A DNA stretch of 64,000 nucleotides from the NCBI GenBank assembly GCA_022579005.1, contig MU401465.1:62001-126000 (forward strand), read 5' to 3'. Positions 56,618 to 64,000 of this stretch are shown here, piece by piece (the first letter of the stretch is position 1; each line of letters starts with the position of its first letter). This DNA is from Poronia punctata. Taxonomy: Eukaryota > Ascomycota > Sordariomycetes > Xylariales > Xylariaceae. The notes below the pieces were generated by a model that saw only the letters and a program-made list of their open reading frames with translations, was not told the DNA's origin and searched no databases. Both the position numbers and the translations under genes were made by a program.

Positions 56618-56777
56618 TGTCACAGTCTACACTGCCGGGGGGTCCGTAATGACTTATTGTTATTGCACAAGGAGGGAAGGTTTCTCTGAGAAGCAGAGGT
56701 CTCCTGTATCTACTTATATAGGCGTTTCGGTGTAGACTTGGCCTGTACACGTAGGCACCGAGACCGGAACCGTGACA
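56618..56777 (-). repeat. 3' LTR, 160 bp
   Basis: Begins TGTCAC and ends GTGACA, a 6-bp terminal inverted repeat with the usual TG/CA ends. Its first 41 bases match 63960-64000 exactly. It is followed on the inner side by a pyrimidine run, the complement of the polypurine tract. Confidence 0.92.
56713..56720 (-). promoter_or_regulatory. LTR TATA box (TATATAAG on the minus strand)
   Basis: TATATAAG lies about 52 nt upstream of the segment GTGCAATAA (56668-56660), where the transcript would start in a self-priming model. The almost symmetric TATATA could also act towards the + strand and drive the antisense gene 420 bp away; this is inference. Confidence 0.55.
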
Positions 56778-56780
56778 GTA

Positions 56781-56791
56781 CCCCCCTCTCT
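56781..56791 (-). other. polypurine tract of the intact element
   Basis: On the minus strand AGAGAGGGGGG, separated from the 3' LTR by TAC. It is the plus-strand primer position. Confidence 0.8.
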
Positions 56792-56795
56792 AAAT

Positions 56796-56815
56796 TGTAG
56801 CTGACCGCAGCTACA
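56796..56815. other. 8-bp perfect inverted repeat next to the polypurine tract
   Basis: TGTAGCTG and CAGCTACA separated by four bases (ACCG), so either strand can form a tight hairpin. It lies just inside the polypurine tract, at the start of the antisense gene's upstream region. It could be a structural signal in the genomic RNA or part of the antisense promoter. Confidence 0.55.
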
Positions 56816-57137
56816 CGTAAAAAATAAAAACAAGAAAAGAAAACAAGGCTGCGTTTCTTAGGAAAGAGCATTTGTGCAAAGGCAGGCATTTCGCGGCAGG
56901 AGCGCCTTTAAAACGGAAGGGGCTCGCTTTTGTAGCGCGACCGCCCCACAGGCACTGTTGTTTGTTGTTGTGCCCTTTAAATTCCCATGCCTGCGCTTCT
57001 GTTCCTACTCGCTCCCACTTCTCCTCCATCTTCACCTTTCCTCACCACCCTTCCGCCTGCAATCGGTCATCTTCAATTGTTACACCTTCAATCCCTCGCG
57101 CCGCGCCTCCAAGTCGGGGCTTTCTCGTCGTGGCATC

Positions 57138-57974
57138 ATGCCCGTCTACCATCCGGTCCGCTCGGCGGAAGAGATTTGTCTCCACTGCATTCGGACCTCG
57201 GTCAAAAAATACAAGAAAATGAAGCCGAGCCAGCGCGCCGGCAATATGCTCGAGATTAGCTGTTCCTTCGCCGCCAGTTCGTCTACGCGTTGCGAGCAAT
57301 GCGTCGAGCGCAAGGACACGTGTGAGGCAGTAAGTAAAAAGAAACAGAAAGAAAATCTTTGTGCATATCTAATAGGCCGCGTAGCCGACCGCGTGTGTGT
57401 TGGGAGACGCCCAGGATTTGATGGCGCTCTTGTCGTGGGTCACCGCGCTTTAGGAGAGCGACGATGACGACGATGATGAGGATTCTGAAGATTCTGAGGA
57501 GTTTTACGGTCCCATTTACTCCGACGATACCCGCCGAGCCGCCTCTGATGCGGTGGTGGAGCTGGTGGCCGCCTTCGAAAACATGGAGAAGATTGTTCGC
57601 TCGGAGCACGGTTTGGCTTCCGCAAAGAAGTCCAAGAGCGTATGTATCGCCCGTGACTCGTTGTCGTGTCGCCACTAATGATGTCATAGAGTGTGAAAAT
57701 TGCCTACCAGCAGTTTCTTCAGGGTCGCCGGGAGCTCGCCCTCGCTGCCAATCCGCGTCCGAAGAGCAAGAAGCGCGAGAGGCTTCTCGCTTGGTCCGAC
57801 ACGCAGTTGCTCCGCCTCCTCCCTGGCGACGTGGGAGCCGCTGGCTGGAAGAAGGCGAAGCGCCGGTTTCTCGCCGCCATTCGCCGGGCCGTGGTTGCTG
57901 ACGACCATTACGCGGAGGATATCGAGGACGTTCGGGAGCTTTTCGACGATGCGCCGCCAGCTGTTCGTTTGTGA
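57138..57974 (+). CDS. antisense three-exon gene inside the retrotransposon, Zn2Cys6-like six-cysteine protein (220 aa)
   Basis: Exons 57138-57329, 57454-57639 and 57690-57974, all joined in phase 0. The introns are 124 nt (GTAAGT ... TTTAG) and 50 nt (GTATGT, ACTAAT branch site, ATAG). Exon 1 encodes a short basic region between cysteines spaced C14-x2-C17-x24-C42-x9-C52-x2-C55-x6-C62. The order C-x2-C, C, C-x2-C-x6-C recalls a Zn2Cys6 domain with a longer first loop. Exon 2 begins with an acidic run (residues 65-80, ESDDDDDDEDSEDSEE) and continues as a helix-rich segment. Exon 3 has a basic stretch (PKSKKRERLL), then WKKAKRRFLAAIRR and an acidic end. The gene is tail-to-tail with pol, about 210 bp apart. 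A pyrimidine-rich leader precedes the ATG. I do not recognise a named family. Zinc binding and a DNA- or chromatin-binding role are inference only. Confidence 0.75.
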
Positions 57975-58187
57975 GGCGGGGAGCTCTGGTTGTGGTGGGT
58001 GTGGTGTCGGTTTGTCGGGGTTGGGCCGCTTTGGCTTTGATGGCGTCACGAGAGTGACCGGGGGGTGTGTCGTCGGCTTTCTAGAAGCAAAATAAGAAAA
58101 ATAAAAGGAATTCCAAAGATTTTTTAACAGAGAATTTAAAAGGCTGCACGGCGGCGTGTTCGGTGGTGGCGTGCTGGGGGCGTAAGA

Positions 58188-61100
58188 TTAGCTTGCTAGC
58201 GTCTCGGTTTCGTCTCGCGGCATCTGAAGCCATCTTGGTGGCCCTGGTTTGCTTGGGTTGCGCCGGTGGAACGCTACCATCTCGGCTTCGTTTCCTTCTA
58301 GGTTGCGCGCTGGTTCCCATGACGGCCGGTGGGGTGCTGGCCACTTGACTTTATACATCAGGCCCTTGGTTTTGTGCCGCTTGCAGTCAAGGATTTCGTC
58401 AAACGACCACCGAAGTTCTTCTTTCCCATCATATTCCACTATAACTATACCTTCTGCCTTGTCGTCGTAGGGCTTATTTAGCGCGTCCTGGCCGGGTAGC
58501 CCCTGTGTCGCTAGGCGGACTAACGAAGTATGAAATACCGGGAAGACTTCATATTGTTGAGGTAGGTCAACAGCAATAGCTCGTTTATAGACCTTAGTAA
58601 CATCAAACGGGCCTATCCATTTTTCGGCTAGCTTTGGCGACGGTTTTGAGGTGCGGAGGTGTTTTGTGCTAACCCAGACCTTATCCTTTTCCTTATATCG
58701 GATCGAGTCAACACGTGCCGCATCGGCAGCGTCTGCATAGCGAGTCTGGGCCTCGGCCATAAACGACCGGGCCCGAGTAGTTACCCTCTCGATTCGCTCA
58801 GCGACATTTGAAGCTGCTAGAAACTCATCCCGTTGGTTTTTCGTCCTGTATTCGGACGGGTCCGCCGCCGGTTCGGTGCCAAGTCGCGGGTGCCAGCCGT
58901 AATTTGCAAAAAACGGGCTAAGGCCGGTAGCTTCTGATGTCTGATTATTTGTCGCAAATTCGGCTAGTGGTAGCCAGTCTGCCCAGTCGTCCTGATAATG
59001 GCTGCAGTAGGCCCTTAGGTATTGTTCCATCATGGCGTTTACAATCTCCGTCTGCCCATCGGTCTCGGGGTGGTGTGCTGTAGAACGTGACAAGGTGACG
59101 GCTAGGCGGCGGTTCAACTCCTTCCAGAAAATCGAGACAAATTGTGACCCTCGGTCTGAAACTATAGTCTCGGGGGCGCCGTGAAGTCGGTACACTACCG
59201 AGACGAAGGCGTCTGCAAGCGTTGTCGCCATAGTGTCTTTAACAGGGATAAAGTGTCGCATTTTAGTAAGCCTGTCAACAACAACTAGGATGTGCTTGTA
59301 GTCAATTCCGTTTCGCCTGCACGTCGGTAGAGGTCCGACAAAATCGACAGATATGTCAGACCAAGGCCTGTACGGGACGGGTAGTGGTTCAAGAAAACCT
59401 GCTGGCGAGGTCCGTGAATTCTTCGTACGCTGGCAGAGGTGGCATCCCTTTACAAACGTCTTGACGTCGCTATTGAGTCGCGGCCAGGTGTACGTGCGTC
59501 TAACTAGGTCAATAGTCTTGAACCGCCCCGGGTGGCCTGCTGGCGATACGTTATGGGCGCGTGAGATCACCTCAAGCCTTGCGACGTCGTCATCCGGGAC
59601 AAAAACCTTGTCCTTGATGTAGATTCGTCCCCGTTTAACAGTGCAGTCTGTAAGGGCGCCTCGGAAACGTTTTCGTATCGGTCCTGAAAAGCGGCGCACC
59701 TCTGGATCTTCGATCTCGGCGATGATCTGAGGGACTAGCGGTGACCGTGCGTAGGCGTCATCGAGCACCTCGTCGATCGGGGCCACGTCGCTGGTGAGTC
59801 GCAAGTGTGCCGGTGCTCCATCACCACTGGCCCACTTGTCGGGTGTGAGTAGTACCCGAGATCTGTGCGCTATCCGGTCGTCGGTGGTGTCCGTTTTGCT
59901 CGCCGGCTTGTCGCCGGGCCGTCGGGAAAGTGCGTCAGGTACTGTGGCCTTTGTTCCTGGCCGGTACACGATCTGAAACCTGAAGTCGTTAAGGAATTCC
60001 GACCAGCGGACCTGTCGTTGATTCAAGAGCTTTGTAGTGGCGAAGTGCTGGAGACTCTTATGGTCGGTGATAACCTCGACAACGTCTTCACACCCTTGAA
60101 GTTCTGGGCGCCATTCTTCAAAGGCTTTAACGATCGCTAGGAGCTCTTTGTCATAAATCTCGTAGTTGCATTCAGCCGGGGTGTGTTTCGCCGAAAAGAA
60201 GGCGATTGGGTGTCGAGTGCCTTCGTCGTCGGATTGGTAAAGGACGCCACCCGACGCCCAGTCGGACGCATCAACTTCCACTGTAGTTTTCTTAGCAGGG
60301 TCATAGTAGGCAAGGACCGGAGCGGTAGTAAACGCTTTCTTAAGCGCCTCAAAGGCGGCAAGGGGCCGTTCGCCTAGCGAGCCCGGCCACTTTTCCTTGC
60401 TCATAAGTTCTGTAAGGGGCCGTGCTATTGCCGAAAAGCCTTTAATAAAGCGTCGATAGTAGTTCGCAAAGCCGACGAATCGCTGCAGGTCCCGGAGAGT
60501 GTCCGGTGGTTCCCAGGTCATAATAGCCTCGATCTTGGCAAGGTCCATGCTAATTCCATCCGTTGAGATAATAAGGCCTAGGTACTTAGTCTTAGTAACG
60601 CTAAATTCGCATTTTGCAATGTCGATTGTAAGGCCGGCTCTGATAAGCCTCGCTAGTACCTCGCGGACGTGTCGCCTGTGCTCCTTTTTCGAGTTGCTGT
60701 AGATAAGGATATCGTCGAGGTATGCTGTAGCATACTTATCTAGGATATCAAAGAGGACGTGGTTAATGTAGTGCTGAAAACTGCTAGGTGCCCCTGTCAT
60801 GCCGAAGTTTGCAACTAAGCACTCAAACAGGCCGAACCTGGTGATAAACGCCGTTTTCCACTCGTCCCCGGGGGCGATGCGCAAGCGATTAAAAGCCGCA
60901 ACGATGTCAAGTTTAGTGTAAAATTTTGCTTTACACAGGGCGTCTAAGGTCTCTCGGATTAGCGGGATAGGGTACCGGTTCTTGACTGTAACGTTATTAA
61001 GGCCACGGTAGTCGACGCAAACCCGTATACCCCCCCCTGGCTTTTTAGCTAGGAGGATAGGGGCGGCCGCCGATGAGGAGCTAGCGCGTATAAACCCCTT

Positions 61101-62195
61101 CGCCAGGTGATCGTCTAGGTACTTTCGGACCACTAATAACTCCCGGGGGGACATAGGTCGCGCTGCGGCGCTAGGGGGTTCCCCTCCAGGGACGAGGTCG
61201 ATCTTGTGGTCATAGGGCCGGTGAGGGGGAAGGGTTTCTGCGTTCCGTGGCAAGAAGGCGTCGAGTAGGTCATGATACTCGGCCGGTAGCCTGGCGAGTA
61301 CTTCTTTCTCTGTAAGGGGGTCTTTGCGTTCAAGAAATTTGTCGATGTCCTCGTCAGCCATTCGCCGTAAGGGGAGCGCTTCTTGCACCCAGTCATGGTA
61401 CGCCTTAAGCCTAGGTGGGAGGGACTGGGGTTCCGGAATGTCTTCGCCAGTGAGCAGTCTACGCAGAAGCACCGATGGTGTGTCGAGGGCAAGGCGCTCT
61501 ACTGAGCGGTGGTCGGCGGCCGCGCTATTATCTGGGATTTGGCGGAGGGCGTCCGTAATAGCCATAAACTTGGCAAACGGCATTGAATCGACAGTGGTGC
61601 CCTTTTGTCTCGCCGTCAGGAGGAAGGCGGCGGCATTAACAGAGAGGACTGAGGTCTGGGGTGTCTCGGGGCTAGGTCCAGCGGTATCCTGTTGTTGCGG
61701 CGTCGGGTCGGCTTCGGTCCGCCTTTCTGTCGCTACGTTATCCCCAATCGTGAGGGTGCCCTTCTGCCAGTCAATGACCGGGTTATGTTGGCGTAGCCAA
61801 GGGAGTCCTAGGATAACGTCGGTATCGCCTAACGGCCAGGCGTACAGTTCTAAATTTTTAATGTACCCCCTGAGCTGGTGCCGGATGGTGCAGCACTGGG
61901 TGACCTTCCCGGCTATTGTGCCATCGGCAAGGCGGAGAGTACGGGGGTAAGCGGTGGCGTGGAGGGTGAGGTTGTGAGTTTGCGCAAACGAGGTGTCAAT
62001 GAAACCATGGGGAGAACAGCCCGAGTCGACAAGGGTTCGACATGGGATCAAGGTATTATCACTGTTGGATACATGGGCATTAAAGCTGAGAGATGTATTA
62101 GGCCCTATAGACCGTATGTATAGGTAATTCCCTTTGGTTTCTTGAAACTTCGCGTAACGCCTCCGGCTGCGGCTCGAGCTAGAGGCTACTCTTTT
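58188..62195 (-). CDS. pol: pol polyprotein of the intact element (protease, RT, RNase H, integrase, chromodomain)
   Basis: Frame -1 relative to gag and open upstream into the gag 3' end, with no ATG of its own near the start, so it is read by frameshift. Domains in order, counted from the codon at 62051: aspartic protease LVDSG (D9-S10-G11); reverse transcriptase with VCVDYRGLN, LVANFGMTGAPSSFQ and YLDD at about 444-447; RNase H starting VEVDASDWASGG; integrase zinc finger H-x-H...C-x-x-C ending GCHLCQRTK; and the catalytic core with Asp in ISVDFVGPLP, Asp in IVSDRGSQF and Glu in DGQTEIVNAMMEQ. The C-terminal chromodomain (EYDGKEELRWSFDEIL ... YKVKWPAPHRPSWEPARNL) keeps the W-E-P block. All catalytic residues are present and there is no stop over about 1335 codons, so the enzyme is probably functional. 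Confidence 0.95.
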   Translation of the reverse strand, partial: KRVASSSSRSRRRYAKFQETKGNYLYIRSIGPNTSLSFNAHVSNSDNTLIPCRTLVDSGCSPHGFIDTSFAQTHNLTLHATAYPRTLRLADGTIAGKVTQCCTIRHQLRGYIKNLELYAWPLGDTDVILGLPWLRQHNPVIDWQKGTLTIGDNVATERRTEADPTPQQQDTAGPSPETPQTSVLSVNAAAFLLTARQKGTTVDSMPFAKFMAITDALRQIPDNSAAADHRSVERLALDTPSVLLRRLLTGEDIPEPQSLPPRLKAYHDWVQEALPLRRMADEDIDKFLERKDPLTEKEVLARLPAEYHDLLDAFLPRNAETLPPHRPYDHKIDLVPGGEPPSAAARPMSPRELLVVRKYLDDHLAKGFIRASSSSAAAPILLAKKPGGGIRVCVDYRGLNNVTVKNRYPIPLIRETLDALCKAKFYTKLDIVAAFNRLRIAPGDEWKTAFITRFGLFECLVANFGMTGAPSSFQHYINHVLFDILDKYATAYLDDILIYSNSKKEHRRHVREVLARLIRAGLTIDIAKCEFSVTKTKYLGLIISTDGISMDLAKIEAIMTWEPPDTLRDLQRFVGFANYYRRFIKGFSAIARPLTELMSKEKWPGSLGERPLAAFEALKKAFTTAPVLAYYDPAKKTTVEVDASDWASGGVLYQSDDEGTRHPIAFFSAKHTPAECNYEIYDKELLAIVKAFEEWRPELQGCEDVVEVITDHKSLQHFATTKLLNQRQVRWSEFLNDFRFQIVYRPGTKATVPDALSRRPGDKPASKTDTTDDRIAHRSRVLLTPDKWASGDGAPAHLRLTSDVAPIDEVLDDAYARSPLVPQIIAEIEDPEVRRFSGPIRKRFRGALTDCTVKRGRIYIKDKVFVPDDDVARLEVISRAHNVSPAGHPGRFKTIDLVRRTYTWPRLNSDVKTFVKGCHLCQRTKNSRTSPAGFLEPLPVPYRPWSDISVDFVGPLPTCRRNGIDYKHILVVVDRLTKMRHFIPVKDTMATTLADAFVSVVYRLHGAPETIVSDRGSQFVSIFWKELNRRLAVTLSRSTAHHPETDGQTEIVNAMMEQYLRAYCSHYQDDWADWLPLAEFATNNQTSEATGLSPFFANYGWHPRLGTEPAADPSEYRTKNQRDEFLAASNVAERIERVTTRARSFMAEAQTRYADAADAARVDSIRYKEKDKVWVSTKHLRTSKPSPKLAEKWIGPFDVTKVYKRAIAVDLPQQYEVFPVFHTSLVRLATQGLPGQDALNKPYDDKAEGIVIVEYDGKEELRWSFDEILDCKRHKTKGLMYKVKWPAPHRPSWEPARNLEGNEAEMVAFHRRNPSKPGPPRWLQMPRDETETLAS

Positions 62196-62197
62196 TT
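62159..62197 (-). promoter_or_regulatory. probable -1 ribosomal frameshift signal between gag and pol
   Basis: On the minus strand a run of six A (62197-62192, gag codons AAA AAA) is followed by GAGTA and then a stem GCCTC/GAGGC (62186-62182 with 62163-62159) around an 18-nt loop. Gag stops at TAG 62188-62186, and pol is open in the -1 frame across the A run. A slippery A run, a 5-nt spacer and a stem are the usual arrangement. The base before the run is G, so it is not the ideal A-AAA-AAG heptamer in phase. Confidence 0.6.
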
Positions 62198-63712
62198 CGA
62201 CTCGATCCGAGTGGTCGGTGTTGACCCTTTCGTTTTCTCTCGCGATTCCCTAGCCTTTAACAATCCACAGGACATAGCTAAGTGTCCTGGCTGACCGCAA
62301 TATCGGCAAAGCCCGAGTCGCTCGCGCCTCTCTTTCTCTTCGGCTGTAAGGGGGCCCCGGGGTCCTGTCGTTGTAAGCTTACTTAGGTCCATAGGGTCCC
62401 CTCGGGTATGATTGTTGGTTGATGAGGTAGGGTTGTATGCTGGGGCGCGGTGGTCTAGGCGGAAATCCCGGTCGGCGATATTGTTTGAAAGCTGTCGTAG
62501 AAGGTCTATCCAGGCCATAATGTTGTCGGGTTCAGGGCGACTTGTCTGTGAAACGAGGGCGTCTTGAAGTCTCTTGTTAACTTTAGCCCGGAGCTGTTCA
62601 ACCTGTTGCGAGGGGGTACGTTGGCTCTCGTCGGCGAGTCGGACGAAGGTAGAAATAAAGCTAGCAAACGAGGCATCGCCCTGCTTCAATTTTTCAAACT
62701 CCCGAACAGCCTCCGAGTAGACGTCGACAACGACGTAGGACGCATTTAGGTCCGCCAGCACATCGTTGTAGTCTTTCCAGCCGGCGGGCCACTTGGAGTC
62801 GTCAAAGGGGTTGCTCGACACCTGTTCGACCCGTGATCGGACTCGCGTAAACGCCGCACCGGAGAGGCTAGAGCAGGTAAACAGGATCCTATCTGCCGGT
62901 GTTGGGTAGCAGTCCCTATCCAGGGCGAATTTGAGTCCGAGTTGGCTGCGCCAGTTGACGTATTCCTCCTGTCGCTTCCTGTCATCCTTTTCTGATTCAT
63001 CAAAGGAAGGGGGGCTGCTAATTCGGTTGCGTGGTGGTCCTCCATACATAGGATATGCAGGCGAGACGGTGGCGCCAAGGGGGGATGTGACCTGGAACGT
63101 GGGAGCGGTAAGGTTGGGAGCCACAGGTGTGCCGGGTAGTGGGGCTGAGGCGGGTCCTTGTGGGGCGGCGCCAAGCCGGCCTTGCAACGTCGCTACTTCG
63201 GCTTGGAGCCGCGTGTTGTTCTGTTGTGCCTCGTTACGTTGCTGCACCGCTTGTTCTAGCTGAGCGGTAACAGTGTCTTTCTCGCTGATAGCATCTCGAT
63301 ACTGTCCCTCAGCGGTGGCGAAATTGTTCTGGAGCTCGGTGTGTTTTCCTTCTAGCTGTCGTCCTTCAAAGTGGAGTCGCTGGTTTGCCGCTTCTAATTC
63401 GCTTGCGCGTCGCCGGAGCTGCCCGAGTTGTTCGTTGTTTGAGCTCGCTTGTTGTTGTAATTCGGTAACTTGTTGAGACCCGCTTGCCACGACATCGTTG
63501 ATGAGCCGTAGGATCCTCGACAGCTCTTCGCTAGCCGGTCTGCTACGGTTAAGGTGGTTGATAAGGACGTGGTAGTCGGCATCAGGCTCATGAACAGTCT
63601 GCTGAAGGGCTGGGAAAGGGGCTAAGATTGCGCCGATGCTATTGGGCTGAGGCTGGGGCGAAGGGGAGGGGGTTGGTTGGCGGGACGGGGTACCGCTGGA
63701 TCCGGAGTCCAT
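62186..63712 (-). CDS. gag: gag protein of the intact element (508 aa)
   Basis: ATG at 63712 after a 247-nt leader. The N-terminus is Pro/Ser/Gln-rich. A long heptad-like region at about residues 78-178, rich in Gln, Leu and Glu, should form a coiled coil and is unusual in length for a gypsy gag. Residues 230-440 are the capsid region (includes WRSQLGLKFALDRDCYPTPADRILF and the FASFISTFVRLAD block). A CCHC zinc knuckle C469-x2-C472-x4-H477-x4-C482 marks the nucleocapsid. The C-terminus is Lys/Arg-rich and ends at the frameshift site. The protein packages the genomic RNA into cytoplasmic particles. The frame is intact. Confidence 0.93.
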   Translation of the reverse strand: MDSGSSGTPSRQPTPSPSPQPQPNSIGAILAPFPALQQTVHEPDADYHVLINHLNRSRPASEELSRILRLINDVVASGSQQVTELQQQASSNNEQLGQLRRRASELEAANQRLHFEGRQLEGKHTELQNNFATAEGQYRDAISEKDTVTAQLEQAVQQRNEAQQNNTRLQAEVATLQGRLGAAPQGPASAPLPGTPVAPNLTAPTFQVTSPLGATVSPAYPMYGGPPRNRISSPPSFDESEKDDRKRQEEYVNWRSQLGLKFALDRDCYPTPADRILFTCSSLSGAAFTRVRSRVEQVSSNPFDDSKWPAGWKDYNDVLADLNASYVVVDVYSEAVREFEKLKQGDASFASFISTFVRLADESQRTPSQQVEQLRAKVNKRLQDALVSQTSRPEPDNIMAWIDLLRQLSNNIADRDFRLDHRAPAYNPTSSTNNHTRGDPMDLSKLTTTGPRGPLTAEEKERRERLGLCRYCGQPGHLAMSCGLLKARESREKTKGSTPTTRIESKKE

Positions 63713-63915
63713 AGTGTGCTTCTAAAGTGTGTACTGGGGTAAGCGTGGTGGTGTCGTGGCGGTGTCGATGAGCAGGTGGTTCCTTGGCTCTGTGTCGGTG
63801 TGTCGTAAGTTTTACTTAGTAGGTGGCGGTGTAGGTGCAGAGTGCAAGTTGTTCCAGCGGCGAGTCCGTGGCGATCTATCGTAGGTGCGGTGTAGTAGAT
63901 GTGTTGGCTAAGGGT

Positions 63916-63937
63916 TTCATCAATAGTAATTGATGAA
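63916..63937. other. 9-bp perfect inverted repeat in the 5' leader
   Basis: TTCATCAAT and ATTGATGAA with a 4-nt loop, 12 bases on the gag side of the probable primer-binding site. It may stabilise the folded RNA used for priming or packaging. Confidence 0.6.
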
Positions 63938-63948
63938 GATTTTTTAAG

Positions 63949-63957
63949 GTGCAATAA
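63949..63957 (-). promoter_or_regulatory. probable self-priming primer-binding site
   Basis: On the minus strand TTATTGCAC starts two bases after the 5' LTR. It is perfectly complementary to GTGCAATAA in the LTR (56668-56660). No TGG start, as expected for a tRNA 3' end, is found here. Confidence 0.55.
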
Positions 63958-63959
63958 AC

Positions 63960-64000
63960 TGTCACAGTCTACACTGCCGGGGGGTCCGTAATGACTTATT
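63960..64000 (-). repeat. 5' LTR, only its inner 41 bp in the window
   Basis: Identical over the whole visible length to 56618-56658. The remaining 119 bp or so and the outer target duplication lie beyond the right edge. Confidence 0.9.

Follow-up and report, generated by a model that had tools for sequence, protein, structure and literature searches.

Extra genes lying antisense to gag-pol are known from LTR elements. In fungi, brtn has been described as the antisense gene of the Boty-like elements of Botrytis cinerea (Zhao et al. 2011, as cited in PMC8365987, PMC7264820, and PMC4227169); where PMC7264820 mentions it, brtn, also given for Sclerotinia, is counted among the antisense ORFs situated between pol and the 3' LTR, and a Monilinia transcript similar to a truncated Pol and to BRTN has been noted (PMC5987419). 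Plant elements harbor antisense ORFs for which regulatory roles have been suggested, and for Grande an own promoter and a nuclear protein are reported (PMC7264820, PMC11963269). Among viruses, the HBZ gene of HTLV is an antisense protein gene, the HTLV antisense promoter being located in the 3' LTR (PMC11963269, PMC7264820). We analysed a stretch of 64,000 nucleotides (hereafter the window; G000:C12:62001-126000) of the Poronia punctata genome, of which 45.05 Mb in 573 contigs were searched, and our preferred reading, to which we assign a probability of roughly 0.7, is that the window holds a recently inserted chromovirus with an antisense accessory gene that would be transcribed from its own promoter in a leader, spliced, and kept through transposition.

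The initial annotation knew of no described fungal case, for which the passages on brtn now supply a precedent: as here, the host is a fungal LTR element, its gag-pol includes a chromodomain (PMC4227169), and the extra gene, antisense to gag-pol, sits in the interval that separates pol from the 3' LTR (PMC7264820). This likeness is one of position and strand, taken from the descriptions rather than from sequence, and the failure of searches with the two candidate products (220 and 86 aa) to find a homologue is weak evidence in this respect. The plant ORFs are likewise similar in position and strand (PMC7264820, PMC11963269) but differ in several ways, since the Transposase 28 domain of the Retand/TRP28 antisense ORF (PF04195) found no match up to E 10 in the Pfam search of the present protein, the hosts are plants, and introns are predicted here, whereas the word "intron" occurs 0 times in the main texts of PMC7264820 and PMC11963269. 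HBZ belongs to a different virus lineage and is likened by description. The main text of a survey of fungal LTR elements (PMC3248453) contains neither "antisense" nor "intron", and the open-licence literature yielded no intron-containing fungal antisense case. Antisense passenger genes are already known from other fungi and from plants, probable splicing being the twist that does not appear in the passages on them. With a copy free of RIP-type damage, likely introns, and a first exon whose reading frame is conserved when set against diverged relatives, the locus offers a testable case.

The host element is a Ty3/gypsy chromovirus of 7,502 bp on the - strand (56618-64119, with 56618..64000 inside the window), bounded by a 3' LTR of 160 bp (56618..56777) and a 5' LTR (63960-64119, of which 63960..64000 lies in the window and 119 bases lie past its end). 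The two LTRs are identical at 160/160 positions, and a 5-bp target-site duplication, ACATG, was recognized by eye in the flanks; two LTRs with a short duplication are as expected of Ty3/gypsy elements. The gag ORF (62189..63712, -; 508 codons, TAG at 62186-62188) and the pol ORF (58188..62249, -; 1353 aa) are free of internal stops. In Pfam searches, pol shows the chromovirus order of protease, reverse transcriptase, RNase H, and integrase followed by a C-terminal chromodomain, the last as a weak match of 21.8 bits that lies below the curated cut-off of 25.1, and a Tf2-like SH3 domain is also present. The nearest relatives of pol are 72-79% identical over residues 380-1080, entries from Monosporascus and Seiridium having 73%, among the best 120 of 7,792 relatives. 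With identical LTRs, a duplicated target site, and uninterrupted gag and pol frames, the element is apparently intact, in agreement with its initial description, and recently inserted.

The region from the 3' LTR to the end of pol (56778-58187) carries on its + strand the blocks 57138-57329, 57454-57639, and 57690-57974, so that the position of the putative gene between pol and the 3' LTR, opposite to pol on the - strand, is as first described. All three blocks lack stops and connect in phase 0, which leaves the proposal of three exons and 220 aa standing as far as the reading frames go. Exon 1 (57138..57329, +; 64 aa) contains a cysteine pattern, CxxC...C...CxxC...C, seen by eye; exon 2 (57454..57639, +; 62 aa) includes an acidic run; exon 3 (57690..57974, +; 94 aa and the stop) is basic and, at low confidence in a single-sequence model, predicted to be helical; and AATAAA at 58100..58105 (+), 126 nt past the stop, is a possible polyadenylation signal. 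Codon use was scored with a model trained on gag, pol, and five long ORFs that lie elsewhere in the window, beyond the element, and were assumed to be host genes, and compared with 2,000 sampled length-matched wrong-frame windows from the training sequences, each of which was left out in turn. The joined 220 codons score 0.166 on this codon-use scale, a value that 0 of the 2,000 null windows reach, and this score beyond chance is carried by exon 2 (0.320, above every wrong-frame window; fraction above, 0.000) and exon 3 (0.162; 0.001 of null windows higher), exon 1 being unremarkable (0.025; 0.117 higher). Reading exon 1 as an unspliced ORF of 109 codons (57138-57464) is disfavoured, since extension lowers the score to -0.055, which 31% of wrong-frame windows exceed.

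Exon 1 draws its support from comparison. A search of the genome with this exon returned diverged, decayed relatives outside the element's family, three of which, named C38, C104, and C53 after their contigs, have DNA alignment scores of 115, 202, and 209 against a best of 37, 47, and 41, respectively, in 20 shuffles; a candidate on C109 was rejected (38 against a shuffle maximum of 36). The mismatches in exon 1, pooled over the three relics, fall on third codon positions in 86/190 cases, against 48/189 at first and 38/191 at second positions. Taken singly, third positions and the others differ at 32/63 and 33/126 in C38 (p=0.0008), 29/64 and 33/126 in C104 (p=0.007), and 25/63 and 20/128 in C53 (p=0.0003), all by Fisher tests that are not fully independent, as the relics may share history. 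The exon-1 frame also has the highest BLOSUM mean of the six frames in each of the three, although all are frame-broken and C53 has a stop in frame. They cover exon 1 only, C104 extending into the start of exon 2. The third-position excess and the preferred frame show that exon 1 has been conserved as a predicted + strand protein, and they are the strongest evidence that this exon is protein-coding on this strand. No pol was detected (1e-3) within 8.5-11 kb on either side of the relics. A 2-kb piece of DNA around C104, used as a query, matched itself only, in a search insensitive enough to miss the window too. A further match lies on C158 (E 0.04). The C53 relic (G000:C53:138003-139022) is followed by a piece of the family's LTR, 88% identical over 86 bases, and also by a different repeat, for which the genome has dozens of matches.

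These data bear on two explanations in which the + strand would encode nothing. The first, that a real, env-like third ORF lies on the gag-pol strand and casts the + strand gene as its shadow, could appeal to the length of a 265-codon stop-to-stop ORF (57286-58080, -) and to a 167-codon frame (57687-58187, -) that follows the pol stop and whose score of 0.080 is exceeded by 0.7% of wrong-frame windows; given the latter, the gag-pol strand is not clean of coding signal. However, 22% of wrong-frame windows score above the 265-codon frame (-0.042), the 167-codon frame faces the better-scoring exon 3, and within exon 1 the + frame is better conserved than those of the - strand in 3/3 relics, making this explanation very unlikely. 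The second, that the open frames arose by chance in a non-coding region from which nothing is made, has in its favor the ordinary codon use of exon 1 and the appearance of such frames in shuffled sequence, since a mechanical gene finder allowing up to two introns reached at least 220 aa in 1/300 dinucleotide shuffles with a branch-point rule and in 5/300 without it; ORF length by itself is weak evidence for a gene. The same finder never chose the 220-aa model, its best + strand models being one of 186 aa with exon 2 in a different frame (with the rule) and one of 275 aa with exon 1 extended to 57394 (without it). The codon bias of exons 2 and 3 and the frame-specific conservation of exon 1 speak against chance, which we hold to be more remote still. 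An antisense accessory gene on the strand opposite gag-pol thus appears to be real, and the original observation of such a gene in the element is confirmed in part, its detailed structure being another matter.

The consensus splice signals claimed for both introns are present in the second. Intron 2 (57640..57689, +; 50 nt; GTATGT...ACTAAT...TAG) shows a donor, a branch point, and an acceptor spaced as is ordinary in fungi, and both it and exon 3 are predicted from consensus signals and codon use. Intron 1 as first drawn (57330-57453), on the other hand, has no branch-point motif 6-40 nt before 57453, which makes an acceptor at that position doubtful. The most likely intron 1 is the shorter 57330..57384 (+; 55 nt; GTAAGT...CTAAT...TAG). 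Its acceptor and the branch A are 12 nt apart, its codon score is not coding-like, and its donor and CTAAT are common to C38 and C104, with gaps in between. The next AG, at 57414, is 42 nt from the branch A, keeps the same frame, and runs into the same stop. In dispute is the stretch 57385..57453 (+), either the tail of intron 1 as first drawn or the start of exon 2, at whose end stands an in-frame TAG (57451-57453). With 57384 as the end of intron 1, translation would run into this TAG, and the full protein would need the distal acceptor at 57453. The product would then be either the 220-aa protein, from the distal acceptor, or a truncated, cysteine-rich protein of ~86 aa, and the full protein may be neither made nor needed.

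Two variants of the preferred reading follow from this. It is tentatively conceivable, at less than even odds, that an ancestor possessed the entire gene and that the TAG at 57451 truncated it in the family of the window element, which amplified without the C-terminal part. In favor of this, the acceptor that falls 6-40 nt from the branch point is 57384, 57414 leads into the same TAG, and C104 resembles the frame on either side of the stop, across 57385-57500. In the frame of 57385, the disputed stretch reads VLTDAHDLMAHFSCVSALEESD in C104 against VLGDAQDLMALLSWVTAL*ESDD in the window. Over 57385-57450, C104 has no stop, and 8 of its codons are identical, 4 are synonymous, and 7 are non-synonymous, the other frames having 3 and 1 synonymous; over 57454-57500 the counts are 5, 3, and 3, with 0 synonymous in the other frames. 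Nor is the stop private to the window copy, as its position is TAA in 17/17 other copies examined. Against truncation, exons 2 and 3 keep a strong coding bias and have no other stop, so that the event would have to be recent, and CTTTAG could act as a distal acceptor. Somewhat less likely, and doubtful on the whole, is that the 220-aa, three-exon model is exactly right, with its acceptor at 57453. The phase-0 joins, the codon score of the joined protein, and the removal of the TAG are in its favor, and conservation is compatible with it, C104 having mismatches at 8/39 aligned columns in 57330-57384 and at 14/64 in 57385-57453; as the two stretches are equally similar, similarity to C104 alone cannot separate exon from intron. 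The missing branch point and the two earlier usable AGs after CTAAT argue against this model, as does, by a small difference, the synonymous count of 4 against 3 and 1 in the stop-free C104 frame.

Further copies of the element were found with an exon 3 query (E<=0.001) at 17 other places in the genome (L010-L026). By tblastn at 1e-3, pol is detected at 17/17, exon 2 at 17/17, exon 1 at 15/17, and exon 3 at 12/17, the exon matches being antisense to pol at every one, and in DNA alignments all 17 are collinear with the window, L020 in two pieces. In all 17 other copies examined, the region occupies the same site and strand, as the check that had been proposed asks of related elements. Comparing conservation among the copies, also proposed as a test, is not decisive, as they differ almost only by C>T/G>A: over 1,683 bp (56618-58300), 16/17 carry 489-668 such changes relative to the window and 0-16 other substitutions, and the rearranged L020 has 51 transversions and 406 gap columns. 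CpA and CpG are mutated about equally, unlike in Neurospora, where RIP prefers CpA. The differences are RIP-type mutation, of which the window copy is free, and among the copies looked at there are no intermediates between the two states. We rejected the 17 copies as evidence of selection, since they are one sequence altered by RIP-type changes and their common layout is not independent; what they do show is that the gene moves along with the family. Further family pieces, on C439, C284, C505, and C349, were left out of the substitution count, those on C439 (L035) and C284 (L036) being used in blast runs only.

How the gene would be expressed and retained can be outlined on the preferred reading, in which the chromovirus carries an accessory gene opposite gag-pol, between pol and the 3' LTR. 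The initial annotation had considered the LTR TATA box as a promoter; a promoter in the leader, the 360 nt that separate the 3' LTR from the ATG at 57138, seems to us more likely. The candidate part of the leader (56976..57137, +), which is proposed from its composition and is alignable to relic C53 over 57023-57137, has TTTAAA at 56976 and an unusually pyrimidine-rich tract at 57000-57089 (90 nt, 78% pyrimidine), a richness that 0.02% of the 90-nt windows in positions 1-46000 of the window reach. In filamentous fungi, leaders rich in C and T usually precede the start. The transcript would be spliced at 57330-57384 and 57640-57689, and exons 2 and 3 would be translated only if splicing skipped to 57453, the ~86-aa cysteine-rich protein being made otherwise. 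Reverse transcription of a genomic RNA of the opposite strand would leave antisense introns in place, and the gene would persist through transposition because its introns are present in the genomic RNA as their complement. The introns may serve as a strand label, in that only the antisense promoter, and not the genomic RNA, could give rise to a spliced message. Should the choice at intron 1 set the product, splicing control of the element becomes testable.

The cysteine-rich, acidic, and basic regions would suit a nuclear protein that regulates the element, as proposed for the plant antisense ORFs, a role that we regard as the most likely one, though at less than even odds. An improbable reading is that a chromovirus captured in antisense a spliced gene family of host type, with an alternative acceptor of intron 1 switching the element's regulator from a short, cysteine-rich form to a full-length one or back; C38, C104, and C53 would then be decayed members of that family, without detectable gag-pol nearby, and the antisense orientation would let the introns survive retrotransposition. 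The 220-aa query produced 2,802 candidates in the protein database, none at E<=10, and the 86-aa query no candidate; Pfam, NCBIfam, and PDB sequences gave sub-threshold matches only, and for known zinc-binding families (Zn2Cys6 or other) there was no Pfam match, only a sub-threshold one to Sigma70_ner (E 0.073). Single-sequence structure models have mean pLDDT values of 67 and 70 (exon 3, 70) and found no match in the PDB at E<=0.001, and with such models we claim no fold. There were no relatives among viral contigs, nor among plasmids with the exon 3 query.

The antisense gene was found in 0/2 other families looked at. Genome contigs contained one distant gypsy-type element, L038 (QHXS01000157.1), without a match to any exon; its contig is filed as an Acidobacteria MAG and is probably eukaryotic contamination. 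A second chromovirus-like family of the same genome (G000:C178:18859-21915) has an open pol frame of 1461 aa, without stops and 38% identical to pol of the window element; judged by eye, a few hundred bases lie between this pol and the apparent 3' LTR, and no exon matched in the 2.9 kb searched.

Several minor observations concern the LTRs and the start of the element. LTRs 100% identical to those of the element occur at three further places (G000:C402:4129, C368:8529, and C178:37798), others are 86-99% identical (40 of 102 candidates scored), and positions 221685 and 231736 of C38 look like solo LTRs with the duplications GATAC and CTCAC; the identical LTRs and the C38 solo LTRs suggest recent activity. 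In six mutated copies (C527, C114, C8, C112, C109, and C89), the LTRs are 86-92% identical and the 1,683-bp stretch beside and including the LTR is 68-71% identical, the short LTRs being less mutated than the adjoining stretch. The gag and pol frames overlap by ~60 nt in the -1 frame (62186-62250, -), with an A-rich run close to the gag stop. Directly after the 5' LTR, 63948-63959 (-) reads GTTTATTGCACC, which does not begin with TGG and of which 9 nt are complementary to the element's own LTR (position 110), making self-priming of the kind known from Tf1 possible at this site.
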